A stretch of DNA of 41,408 nucleotides. Source: Hymenobacter sp. (GTDB lineage: Bacteria; Bacteroidota; Bacteroidia; Cytophagales; Hymenobacteraceae). The stretch is from positions 1 through 41,408 of the forward strand of contig JANXOE010000187.1 in assembly GCA_025353745.1 (NCBI GenBank). The letters are read 5' to 3'. The position numbers and the translations under genes were made by a program. Within the stretch, counting starts at the first letter, position 1; every line of letters begins with the position of its first letter. The notes beneath the pieces are model-generated. The model ran no database searches. It worked only from the letters and a program-made list of their open reading frames with translations, and had not been told where the DNA came from. Positions 18,254 to 22,171 of the stretch are shown piece after piece.

Positions 18254-20695
18254 ATGCAAGTGCTCAAATTCGGAGGCACGTCCGTGGCCTCCGCGGAAAA
18301 CATCGAGAAGTCGTGCGCCATCGCGCTCCAGGCGTTGGCCAGGGGCCCCGTGGTGATGGTGGTGTCGGCCCTGGGCGGCACCACCGACGCCCTCATCGGG
18401 GCGAGCCGCGCGGCGGCGGCCGGCGACTACCGCTACCGCGAGGCCCTGGCCCAGCTGCAACAGCGCCACCTGGCCGCAGCCGAGGCCCTGCTGCCGCCGG
18501 CCGGCCAGCCCGACATGGCTGCGCTGCTCACCCGCAGCTTTTCGGAGGTGGTGCAGCTCTGCGACGGCGTGTTTGCCCTGGGCGAGTTGTCGAACCGCAC
18601 CCTCGACCGGCTCATGAGCTTCGGCGAGCTGCTCGCCTCGCACCTGGTGCGGGAGGCCATCGGGGGCCGTACCGCGGCCCTGTGGGCCGACGCCCGGCAG
18701 CTCATCCGCACCAACTCGCGCTTCGGGGCCGCCGAAGTGGACGCGGCCGCCACCCGGCAGCTGGTGCAGGCGTTCCGAGAGCAGCACGCCAACCAGCTGT
18801 GGGTGGTGCCCGGCTTCATCGGGGCCGACGCCCACGGGGCCGTCACCACCCTGGGCCGGGGCGGCTCCGACTACACCGCCGCCCTGCTGGCCGCCGCCCT
18901 CGACGCCGAGGTGCTCGAAATCTGGACCGACGTGAGCGGCATGATGACCGCCGACCCGCGCCTCGTGCCCCGGGCCCGGCCCATTCCCGGCATCTCCTAC
19001 CTGGAGGCCATGGAGCTATCGCACTTCGGGGCCAAGGTGCTGTACTCGCCCACCATTCAGCCGGTGATGGAGCGCGGCATTCCGCTCTGGATCAAGAACA
19101 CCTTCGCCCCGGCCGACTACGGCACCCTGGTGGAAGTGGCCCCGCCGCACAGCCCCGACGTGGTGCGGGGCCTGTCGAGCATCGGCAGCCTGGCGCTGCT
19201 GAACCTGGAAGGCAGCGGCATGGTGGGCATCCCGGGCTTCTCGAAGCGCCTGTTTGCGTCCTTGGCCCGCGAGCGCATCAACGTGGTGCTCATCACCCAA
19301 AGCTCGTCGGAGTACTCGATTTGCGTGGGCGTGGCCGCCGCCGACGTGCCCGCCGCCCAGGCCGCCGTCGACGCCGAGTTCAGGGCCGAAATCAACGGCG
19401 GGCGCATCGCGCCGCTGCGGCCCGAAACCGGGCTGGCCATCGTGGCGCTGGTGGGCGAAAACATGAAGAGCCACCCCGGCGTCAGCGGGCGCATGTTCGG
19501 GGCCCTCGGCCAGAACGGGGTGAACATCCGGGCCATTGCGCAGGGCGCCTCGGAGCGCAACATCTCCACCGTGATCCGGGCCGAAGACGTGCCAAAGGCC
19601 ATCAACGTGCTCCACGAGGCCTTTTTTGAGCCCGCCTACAAGCAGGTGAACCTGTACGTGCTGGGGCCCGGCAACGTGGGCAGCAAGCTGCTCGGGCAGC
19701 TGGCGCGCCAGCAGGCGTACCTGCAAAACCACCTCGGCCTGCAGGTGCGCGTGGTGGCCGTGGCCAACCGCCGCCACTGCGCGGTGCACGAAGACGGCCT
19801 GGACCTGGCCAACTGGCCCGCCGCGCTGGCCGCCGCGGGGCCCTGCACCCTGGCCGAGTTCGCGCAGCTCATCCTGCGCCGCAACCTGCGCAACTCCATT
19901 CTGGTGGACGTGACGGCCGACCCCGAAGCGGCCGACCACTACGCCGCGCTGCTGGAAAAAAGCGTGGCCGTGGTGGCCTGCAACAAGGTGGCCGCCTCGT
20001 CGGGCTTCGCCAACTACGCGCGCCTGAAGGGGCTGGCCCAGGATTTCAACACCCGCTTCCTGTTCGAAACCAACGTGGGCGCGGGCCTGCCCATCATCGG
20101 CACCCTCAACGACCTCACGCGCAGCGGCGACGTGGTGCGCCGCATGGAAGCCGTGCTCTCGGGCACGCTCAACTTCGTGTTCAACCACTACGACGGCCGC
20201 CGGCCCTTCGCCGACGTGGTGCGCCAGGCCCAGGACGAGGGCTACACCGAGCCCGACCCGCGCCTCGACCTGAGCGGCACCGACGTGGCCCGCAAAATCC
20301 TCATCCTGGCCCGCGAAGCCGGCCACCCGCTCGAAATGAGCGACGTGCGGATCGACTCGTTCCTGCCCGCTTCCTGCCTCGACGGCGACGTGGACGCCTT
20401 TTACGCGCAGCTGGCCGTGCACGAAGCCCACTTCCGGGCCCTCTACGACACGGCCACCGCCGACGGCAAGCGCCTCAAGTTCGTGGCCCGCTACGCCGAC
20501 GGCACGGCCGCCGTGGGCCTGCAAGCCGTGGCCCCCGGCCACGACGTGTACGAGCTGCGCGGCAAAGACAACGTGGTGCTCTTCTACACCGACCGCTACG
20601 CCGAGCAGCCGCTGGTGGTGAAGGGCGCCGGGGCCGGGGCCGAGGTCACGGCCGCCGGCGTTTTTGCCGACATCATCCGCGCCGCCCGCCTGTAG
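18254..20695 (+). CDS. thrA: Bifunctional aspartate kinase / homoserine dehydrogenase I
   Basis: MQVLKFGGTSVASAENI N-terminal kinase; ACT-type NISTVIRAEDVPKAINVLHEAF; HDH part VLGPGNVGSKLLGQL, FETNVGAGLPIIGTLNDLTRSGD, GTLNFVFNHYDG. Confidence 0.97.
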   Translation: MQVLKFGGTSVASAENIEKSCAIALQALARGPVVMVVSALGGTTDALIGASRAAAAGDYRYREALAQLQQRHLAAAEALLPPAGQPDMAALLTRSFSEVVQLCDGVFALGELSNRTLDRLMSFGELLASHLVREAIGGRTAALWADARQLIRTNSRFGAAEVDAAATRQLVQAFREQHANQLWVVPGFIGADAHGAVTTLGRGGSDYTAALLAAALDAEVLEIWTDVSGMMTADPRLVPRARPIPGISYLEAMELSHFGAKVLYSPTIQPVMERGIPLWIKNTFAPADYGTLVEVAPPHSPDVVRGLSSIGSLALLNLEGSGMVGIPGFSKRLFASLARERINVVLITQSSSEYSICVGVAAADVPAAQAAVDAEFRAEINGGRIAPLRPETGLAIVALVGENMKSHPGVSGRMFGALGQNGVNIRAIAQGASERNISTVIRAEDVPKAINVLHEAFFEPAYKQVNLYVLGPGNVGSKLLGQLARQQAYLQNHLGLQVRVVAVANRRHCAVHEDGLDLANWPAALAAAGPCTLAEFAQLILRRNLRNSILVDVTADPEAADHYAALLEKSVAVVACNKVAASSGFANYARLKGLAQDFNTRFLFETNVGAGLPIIGTLNDLTRSGDVVRRMEAVLSGTLNFVFNHYDGRRPFADVVRQAQDEGYTEPDPRLDLSGTDVARKILILAREAGHPLEMSDVRIDSFLPASCLDGDVDAFYAQLAVHEAHFRALYDTATADGKRLKFVARYADGTAAVGLQAVAPGHDVYELRGKDNVVLFYTDRYAEQPLVVKGAGAGAEVTAAGVFADIIRAARL

Positions 20696-20751
20696 CCGTT
20701 CGTGCAAAAGCAGAAGAAGCCATTCACATCAATTTTTAGCCCCCGAACGGT

Positions 20752-20950
20752 TGTAATTGCGTTGGTCGAACGGTGGTAGAGACGCGACCCTTCGCGTCTC
20801 AATCGCTGCCCGGATGTAATTGCGTTGGTCGAACGGGTGTAGCGACGCGACCCTTCGCGTCTCAATCGCTGCCCGGCTTTGACTACCCGCAACGATTGCA
20901 ACGATTGAGACGCGAAGGGTCGCGTCTCTACCACCGTTCGACCAACGCAA
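20752..20950. repeat. Three copies of a ~60-bp hairpin-bearing repeat (two direct, one inverted)
   Basis: Copies at 20752-20814, 20815-20876 (period 63) and an inverted copy 20891-20950; core GAGACGCGA-CCCT-TCGCGTCTC with flank TTGCGTTGGTCGAACGG. Confidence 0.9.
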
Positions 20951-20971
20951 GCGGCTCCAAACGCCGGGAAC

Positions 20972-21200
20972 GGCAGGTTTCGCTTGAAAGCTGGCCGTCC
21001 AAACGTTGGGACGGCGGGTTTCGCCCGAAAGATGACCGTCCAAGCATTTGGGACGTCATCTTTCGGGCGAAAGCTCGCCGTCCCAACGCTTGGCCGAGAG
21101 GTTTCGGACGAAAGATGGTCATCCCAGCGTTTGGATGGTCATTTTTCGGGCGAAAGATGGTCATCCCAACGTTTGGACGGCCGGCTTTCGGGCCGGCCGC
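20972..21200. repeat. Tandem array of a 41-42-bp degenerate unit (5 units plus partials)
   Basis: Units begin at 20972, 21014, 21056, 21098, 21139, partial at 21181; each unit has TTTCGssCGAAA and a GTCCcAACGyTTGGgAC-like palindrome; a partial unit may precede from ~20951. Confidence 0.9.
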
Positions 21201-21241: not shown

Positions 21242-22171
21242 ATGCCCGACTCCGTCCTCGTCCACGCGCCCGCCACCGTGGCCAATTTAGGTTGTGGATT
21301 TGACGTGCTGGGGCTGGCCCTGGCGGCCCCCTACGACACGCTGCGCCTGCGCCGCACCGACGCGCCGGGCCTCACCATCGCCCACCTCGACGACTACGGC
21401 CTGCCCACCGACCCCGCCCACAACGTGGCCGGGGCCGCCCTGCGGGCGCTGCTGGCCCGGGTGCCCGAGCCGGTGGGCTTCGCCGTGGAAATCAGGAAGG
21501 GCATCCGGCCGGGCAGCGGCGTGGGCAGCAGCGCGGCCAGCGCCGCCGGGGCCGTGGTGGGGGCCAATGCGCTGCTCGGCAACCGGTTCAGCCGGCTGGA
21601 GCTGGCCGACTTTGCGATGGCGGGCGAAGCCGTGGCCTCCGGCGCGCGCCACGCCGACAACATCGCGCCGGCCATTTTCGGGGGCCTCACGCTGGTGCGG
21701 GCCCTGGAGCCGGCGCTCGACATCGTGGCCCTGCCCGCCCCGCCGCTGTGGGTGGCCGTGGTGCACCCCCAGATCGAAATCAACACCCGCGACGCGCGCC
21801 AGGTGCTGCCCGCCGCCGTGCCGCTGGGCCTGGCCGTGCGCCAGTGGGCCAACGTGGCGGGCCTGGTGGCCGGCTTCCTCACCGCCGACTTTGCCCTCGT
21901 CGGCCGGGCCCTGGAAGACCACGTCGTGGAGCCGGCGCGCGCGCCGCTCATCCCCGGGCTGGCCGAAGCCCGGCGCCGGGCCCTGGCCGCCGGGGCCCTG
22001 GGCGGCGGCATCTCGGGCTCGGGGCCCTCGATTTTCATGCTGAACCGCGACGGCGAAACGGCCCACGCCGTGGCCGCCGCGCTGGGCAGCGTGTTTGCCG
22101 AGCTGGGCATTGCCTACCAGCTGCACGTGGGCCGCATCGCCGGCGAAGGGGCCCGCGTGGTGGCCGAATAG
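21242..22171 (+). CDS. thrB: Homoserine kinase
   Basis: VHAPATVANLGCGFDVLGLAL, RKGIRPGSGVGSSAASAAGAVVGAN (GHMP motif), GGGISGSGPSIFML. Confidence 0.96.
   Translation: MPDSVLVHAPATVANLGCGFDVLGLALAAPYDTLRLRRTDAPGLTIAHLDDYGLPTDPAHNVAGAALRALLARVPEPVGFAVEIRKGIRPGSGVGSSAASAAGAVVGANALLGNRFSRLELADFAMAGEAVASGARHADNIAPAIFGGLTLVRALEPALDIVALPAPPLWVAVVHPQIEINTRDARQVLPAAVPLGLAVRQWANVAGLVAGFLTADFALVGRALEDHVVEPARAPLIPGLAEARRRALAAGALGGGISGSGPSIFMLNRDGETAHAVAAALGSVFAELGIAYQLHVGRIAGEGARVVAE

Follow-up and report, generated by a model that had tools for sequence, protein, structure and literature searches.

Arrays of alternating palindromes in Hymenobacter genomes keep a period of 41 to 43 bp while their sequence is free, and they are tied, both physically and at the genome level, to one uncharacterized protein family whose subfamilies co-diverge with the palindromes. 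They represent a kind of element that has had no name so far, with rows of palindromes fixed in spacing beside the genes of a family that probably binds them. The array described here lies in the window, that is, the whole stretch of 41,408 nucleotides that was analyzed (contig C185; the draft genome measures 3.77 Mb). With moderate confidence, we interpret it as an orphan, gene-less member of this array-plus-protein element, whose cognate protein would bind as phased dimers.

The array occupies the final 240 bp of the 546-bp spacer between thrA and thrB. The features of this region are as follows.

18254..20695, + strand: thrA, bifunctional aspartokinase/homoserine dehydrogenase, upstream of the array (Pfam)
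20748..20950, no strand: separate repeat outside the array, a 53–63-bp element with the core TAGAGACGCGACCCTTCGCGTCTC in two direct copies and an inverted one (TRF)
about 20956..21193, no strand: 41/42-bp tandem array of alternating palindromes, 5–6 units, with 21-bp half-units alternating in orientation (TRF; unit path; lag and dyad test)
20978..20989, no strand: short palindrome of unit 1, TTTCGCTTGAAA, degenerate (sequence)
20997..21012, no strand: longer palindrome 1, GTCCAAACGTTGGGAC (sequence; dyad test)
21019..21030, no strand: short palindrome of unit 2, TTTCGCCCGAAA (sequence)
21038..21054, no strand: longer palindrome 2, GTCCAAGCATTTGGGAC, imperfect (sequence)
21061..21072, no strand: short palindrome of unit 3, TTTCGGGCGAAA (sequence)
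21080..21095, no strand: longer palindrome 3, GTCCCAACGCTTGGCC, imperfect (sequence)
21102..21113, no strand: short palindrome of unit 4, TTTCGGACGAAA (sequence)
21121..21136, no strand: longer palindrome 4, ATCCCAGCGTTTGGAT (sequence; dyad test)
21144..21155, no strand: short palindrome of unit 5, TTTCGGGCGAAA (sequence)
21163..21178, no strand: longer palindrome 5, ATCCCAACGTTTGGAC (sequence; dyad test)
21186..21197, no strand: sixth short palindrome, partial, within the GGCCGGCTTTCGGGCCGGCC hairpin (sequence)
21242..22171, + strand: thrB, homoserine kinase (GHMP kinase), downstream, with its start 48 bp past the array (Pfam)

TRF gave a period of 42 over positions 20956–21190 of the window, and the best-lag identity was 0.54 at lag 42, compared with a maximum of 0.42 in 1000 Markov-1 resamples. 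The original prediction had described a 42-bp tandem array of two alternating palindromes with a single 41-bp spacing; TRF and the lag test bear out the array, but the unit path gave spacings of 42, 41, 42, 41, and 42, so that two are 41 bp. A degenerate unit lies ahead of the array at about 20952. The short palindromes are of the TTTCGnnCGAAA type (starts at 20978, 21019, 21061, 21102, and 21144), and the longer ones are of the GTCCcAACGyTTGGgAC type, centered at 21004.5, about 21046, 21087.5, 21128.5, and 21170.5; the centers of the two types are ~21 bp apart within each unit. An Rfam search of the array gave no family at gathering score; all that it returned were chance matches to long-hairpin microRNAs. 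Arrays of this kind were not found described in the literature searched, and the earlier statement that the array matches no nameable feature class still applies, as no named class fits it.

Much of the remaining thrA–thrB spacer is taken up by the separate 53–63-bp element. Among the related Hymenobacter with a readable thrA–thrB spacer, which is mostly about 50–170 bp, none had a window-type array, so the window array arrived or expanded in its own lineage. Many species have an inverted repeat of different, unrelated sequence in this spacer (L112–L140), and a hairpin seems recurrent at the junction irrespective of sequence. The genome of the window contains a second array, which retains TTTCGCCCGAAA with a different longer palindrome and is split across the ends of contigs C269 and C234 with an 11-base overlap (GTTCCAAAGCC). 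The assembly break there is probably due to the palindromic structure. A perfect 60-bp palindrome opens C234.

In 120 Hymenobacter genomes, searches with the window array and then with the arrays found as queries gave 25 loci, nearly all of which were arrays of 41- or 42-bp units, the lengths often being mixed within one array; a few were single hairpins. A covariance model detected further arrays. In all, the 120 genomes yielded about 60 arrays of this kind with almost no shared sequence, at about 1–5 per genome. The possibility raised with the original prediction that the array is unique to one assembly applies to the thrA–thrB site among the species compared, not to the array family, which is widespread. 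Not one of the 33 arrays that have a gene on either side falls within a predicted gene, and most arrays lie between co-directional genes. A coding repeat was considered, since 42 is divisible by 3 and a few arrays read open, but was rejected because intermixed 41-bp units break the frame.

When 85,462 genomes were scanned for the pattern at a fixed spacing of 41–42 bp, true arrays of several copies also appeared in Odoribacteraceae, Prevotellaceae, Dysgonomonadaceae, and Carboxylicivirga, and none of the inspected matches outside Bacteroidota was an array. In a phylum-wide sample with a free gap of 14–44, only coding or chance-like matches occurred (4/396 genomes); AACGTT-core arrays are therefore rare outside Hymenobacter. 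MAGs of Bacteroidales and other Bacteroidota contain arrays of about 41–42 bp with TTTCCCAACGTTGGGAAA plus a weaker second dyad (L079, L080, L081, L086, L097, L100–L102, L104, and L105, the last being irregular), with no recognizable partner gene in the fetched DNA. In a Proteiniphilum MAG, many contig ends carry one set of irregularly spaced ATCCCAACGTTGGGAT palindromes (L083, L085, L088, L089, L092, L093, and L107), which look like a dispersed repeat of that MAG.

The geometry of the arrays is far more constant than their sequence. Of 61 arrays, 40 had their best lag at 42, 19 at 41, and one each at 43 and 40. The orphan arrays among them (those without an adjacent family gene, as in the window) were found with a 41/42-bp model and lean to these values, yet the gene-adjacent arrays of other subfamilies, which were found without it, have the same period. 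Across the family, dyad centers are exactly 21 bp apart: in an alignment of 42 two-unit pieces, complementarity was 59–64% at the centers 20|21, 41|42, and 62|63 and about 25% elsewhere. The arrays are thus built from 21-bp half-units that alternate in orientation. With 10.5 bp per helical turn, 21 bp corresponds to two turns and 42 bp to four, which puts all dyad centers on a single helix face. Such a constraint is to be expected for a protein on DNA, whereas RNA hairpins do not require it. In the gene sense of gene-adjacent arrays, dyad mismatches comprised 34 G-U (G-T) and 44 A-C (p = 0.31); with no G-U excess, the mismatches give no hint that an RNA stem has been selected on that strand. 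The symmetry is at the DNA level. Covariation of the two dyads in 25 arrays was 0.281 and 0.266 versus 0.175 and 0.165 when shuffled (0/500 each), and it is used just as support because related units can inflate the score. The original prediction had suggested that dyad symmetry is what is preserved, and dyads and the 41–43-bp spacing are indeed kept across about 60 arrays of fully changed sequence. It had left the choice between structure and protein binding, of which the mismatches favor the latter and disfavor RNA structure. The compensatory arm changes expected from it are seen as coupling across units of the 25 arrays, whereas some arms of the window array, such as GTCCCAACGCTTGGCC, are uncompensated.

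When flanking genes were compared, nine arrays, each from a different species, turned out to lie directly 5′ of members of one gene family encoding ~231 amino acids. A profile of the nine proteins found relatives in only 26 of the 120 genomes, often several per genome, with lengths of about 230–260 amino acids. The distant relatives, which were found via protein similarity rather than via arrays, mostly adjoin 41–43-bp arrays of wholly different sequence, such as GGGACGTACGTCCC, GTAACCCGGGTTAC, TTCCGGAGCTCCGGAA, TTGCAACCGGTTGCAA, and GGCCCGGCAGAGCTCTGCCGGGCC. When each lag from 30 to 59 was scored in the flanks of the 41 testable family genes and of 89 control genes from the same loci, the best lag was 41–43 for 36/41 family genes and 11/89 controls. 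At an identity of at least 0.57, the numbers were 35/41 and 1/89 (Fisher p = 2.5e-24). The five exceptions include one lag-40 array, gene fragments, and one gene with its array about 700 bp off. The family protein had no match in Pfam, NCBIfam, PHROG, or PADLOC, and no credible homologs in plasmids, phages, or viral contigs. One 416-amino-acid member has an additional C-terminal region and adjoins a 42-bp array (L255, G067 C13). Several family genes are frameshifted, truncated, or interrupted by stops (L257 in G014, L277 in G032, L278 in G040, L267 in G051, and L210 in G099), some of them at the usual clade-1 locus, which points to repeated loss of the protein. The subfamily-4 gene and its array lie antisense within the spc ribosomal-protein operon (L243, L247, L262, L263, and L268; also C276 and L240), between rpsN (S14)-like and rpsH (S8)-like genes, accompanied in some species by a signal-peptidase-like gene. 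Hopping of modules between loci was considered and is unsupported; members of a subfamily mostly have flanking genes in common.

Each protein subfamily has its own, entirely different palindromes. The tree of 41 proteins separates the subfamilies, and the side of the array follows this tree, being 5′ of the gene in subfamilies 1–3 and 3′ in the 4-5-6 group. Orthologs often have palindrome types in common and sometimes show paired changes (GTAGGACGTCCTAC versus GTTGGACGTCCAAC). At the genome level, arrays were associated with any family gene (13/16 versus 13/104, p = 5e-8, a value inflated by genome relatedness), and window-type orphan arrays occurred in 8/9 genomes with an intact clade-1 gene versus 5/111 without (p = 1e-8, likewise inflated by relatedness). 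Orphan arrays were closer to the gene-adjacent array of their own genome than to those of other genomes (permutation p = 0.0016, kinship ignored). Several orphan sites are common to two to five related species and have therefore been inherited for some time. The sole family gene found in the genome of the window belongs to subfamily 4, whose arrays are not those that resemble the window array, and it is truncated where contig C276 ends. A gene of clade 1, the matching subfamily, was not found in this assembly; it is lost, unassembled, or was never present.

Here, we propose how the element may work. The family protein would bind the palindromes as a dimer, and with dyads every 21 bp the sites would lie on one helix face, so that neighboring dimers could make contact and form an ordered protein–DNA assembly. 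An array at its own gene may regulate or mark the module, whereas orphan arrays would offer additional platforms for binding in trans, at which the complex may act as a roadblock or local organizer between genes. At thrA–thrB, the presence of the protein would lower the transcription of thrB or uncouple it from thrA. Because the assembly contains no matching-subfamily gene, the window array may be a relic or may be served by an unassembled gene. Against the binding interpretation stand the lack of a recognized DNA-binding domain in the family protein, its pI, which varies from 5.8 to 9.8 across subfamilies and is not uniformly basic, the low confidence of the clade-1 structure prediction (pLDDT 41, too poor for a fold search), and the imperfection of some window palindromes. 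At the window itself, the cut-off subfamily-4 gene of the host also argues against it, as it is not of the matching subfamily. A broader generalization is put forward only tentatively: Hymenobacter, and possibly Bacteroidota more widely, may possess an element class of fast-diverging proteins with cognate arrays locked to two and four helical turns, in which specificity is reinvented, arrays spread in trans to operon spacers, and ordered complexes organize or regulate the chromosome.

The arrays might instead be a selfish dispersed repeat, that is, non-autonomous mobile DNA copied to intergenic sites, with the family protein mobilizing it or recruiting a mobilizer in the manner of REP/RAYT. 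The lack of the array in the other thrA–thrB spacers, the likeness of arrays within a genome, and the patchy distribution of the family genes with broken or fragmentary copies would fit this explanation. However, the tyrosine transposase of RAYT (PF01797; HUH, Y1) was not found in the genome of the window, with positive controls, and the protein has no evident catalytic motif. The low number of arrays per genome, the inheritance of several orphan sites by related species, and the mostly common locus of one-subfamily modules also make such mobility unlikely. The protein could alternatively belong to an RNA module like type III toxin–antitoxin systems, in which array transcripts are cut into repeat units that bind it. 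In several subfamilies, tandem repeats of similar length and number do lie directly 5′ of a small gene, and their length is conserved while the sequence diverges, as in ToxIN (PMC5086642). The array region folds as RNA into one long hairpin far better than shuffles (z −13.9), but the opposite strand does so as well (z −11.2), because highly palindromic DNA folds well on either strand. The 3′ position of the array in subfamilies 4–6, the missing G-U bias of the sense strand, the gene-less orphan arrays, and the lack of a toxin-family match (Pfam, NCBIfam, and PADLOC, leaving room for remote fold similarity) render this explanation less probable still.

Bidirectional terminators or mRNA 3′-end stabilizers, tandemly amplified and with no protein partner, would account for the intergenic position of all arrays, for the perfect hairpins between AAA and TTT formed by some terminal units, and for the slight enrichment of convergent over divergent sites (10:4 versus 23:31, p = 0.07). 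This is quite improbable, as it leaves the 41–43-bp period and the tie to one protein family unexplained; moreover, most arrays separate co-directional genes, and a terminator scan of the window region gave no terminator-like site. Neutral origin by slippage and hairpin-templated (quasi-palindrome) mutation is the least credible, although perfect inversion points (such as C234:1–60) and the mixed unit types within an array resemble template switching. It does not explain why unrelated sequences have the same period or why arrays are linked to the gene family relative to controls, and the control test largely refutes it.

If binding by the family protein is confirmed, the arrays and their genes would constitute a natural series of protein/DNA-site variant pairs with constant geometry and freely varying specificity, and would provide a route to testing the co-divergence of such pairs and the influence of phased protein arrays on the bacterial chromosome. 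The association is, in addition, a first clue to a protein family without an assigned function, perhaps to DUF6261 too, and explains a recurrent unannotated repeat of Hymenobacter genomes.

Centromere-like and iteron arrays of plasmids (parC/ParR, parS/ParB, and iterons) consist of evenly spaced binding sites beside the gene of the binder, with specificity diverging among relatives. The Hymenobacter arrays differ in being chromosomal, in their four-turn period, in the lack of homology to known binders, and in that no ParA/ParM or Rep neighbor was noticed beside them. CRISPR was rejected, as the whole 42-bp unit is repeated and there is no spacer. REP/BIME elements with RAYT (REPtrons) are likewise palindromic, alternating in orientation, intergenic, dispersed, and tied to a partner gene family flanked by repeats; unlike these single or paired elements, the present ones form long phased arrays of constant period in few copies, and their partner protein is from another family. 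REPs are defined as short palindromes ending in GTAG (or CGTC) (PMC3733652), and such a constant tag is absent from the unit alignment (A1) and from the other subfamilies. Thus, the array element shares the dispersed intergenic palindromes and fails two tested REP/RAYT features. The type III toxin–antitoxin systems (ToxIN, CptIN, and TenpIN) are similar in that a small gene is accompanied by short tandem repeats whose length is conserved while their sequence varies freely, and in that repeat and protein co-diverge. However, ToxIN repeats are 34–36 nt in contrast to the 41–43 bp of Hymenobacter, where about half of the subfamilies have their array 3′ of the gene, the dyads are symmetric on both strands, and orphan arrays occur; the family protein had no match to a ToxN/CptN/TenpN-type endoribonuclease in Pfam, NCBIfam, or PADLOC. 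The fit is superficial for the 5′ subfamilies and poor with respect to the position in subfamilies 4–6, strand symmetry, and orphans. In Carboxylicivirga, a DUF6261 (PF19775) gene (E 4e-35) has a 41-bp palindrome array directly 5′ of it (L095, one case). The Hymenobacter family proteins did not match PF19775 in Pfam, and hhalign between the two gave E 0.045, no better than decoys, but DUF6261 is similar in length and in its all-helical, low-confidence prediction (pLDDT 44). The DUF6261 array hints that the range of the element is wider than Hymenobacter.
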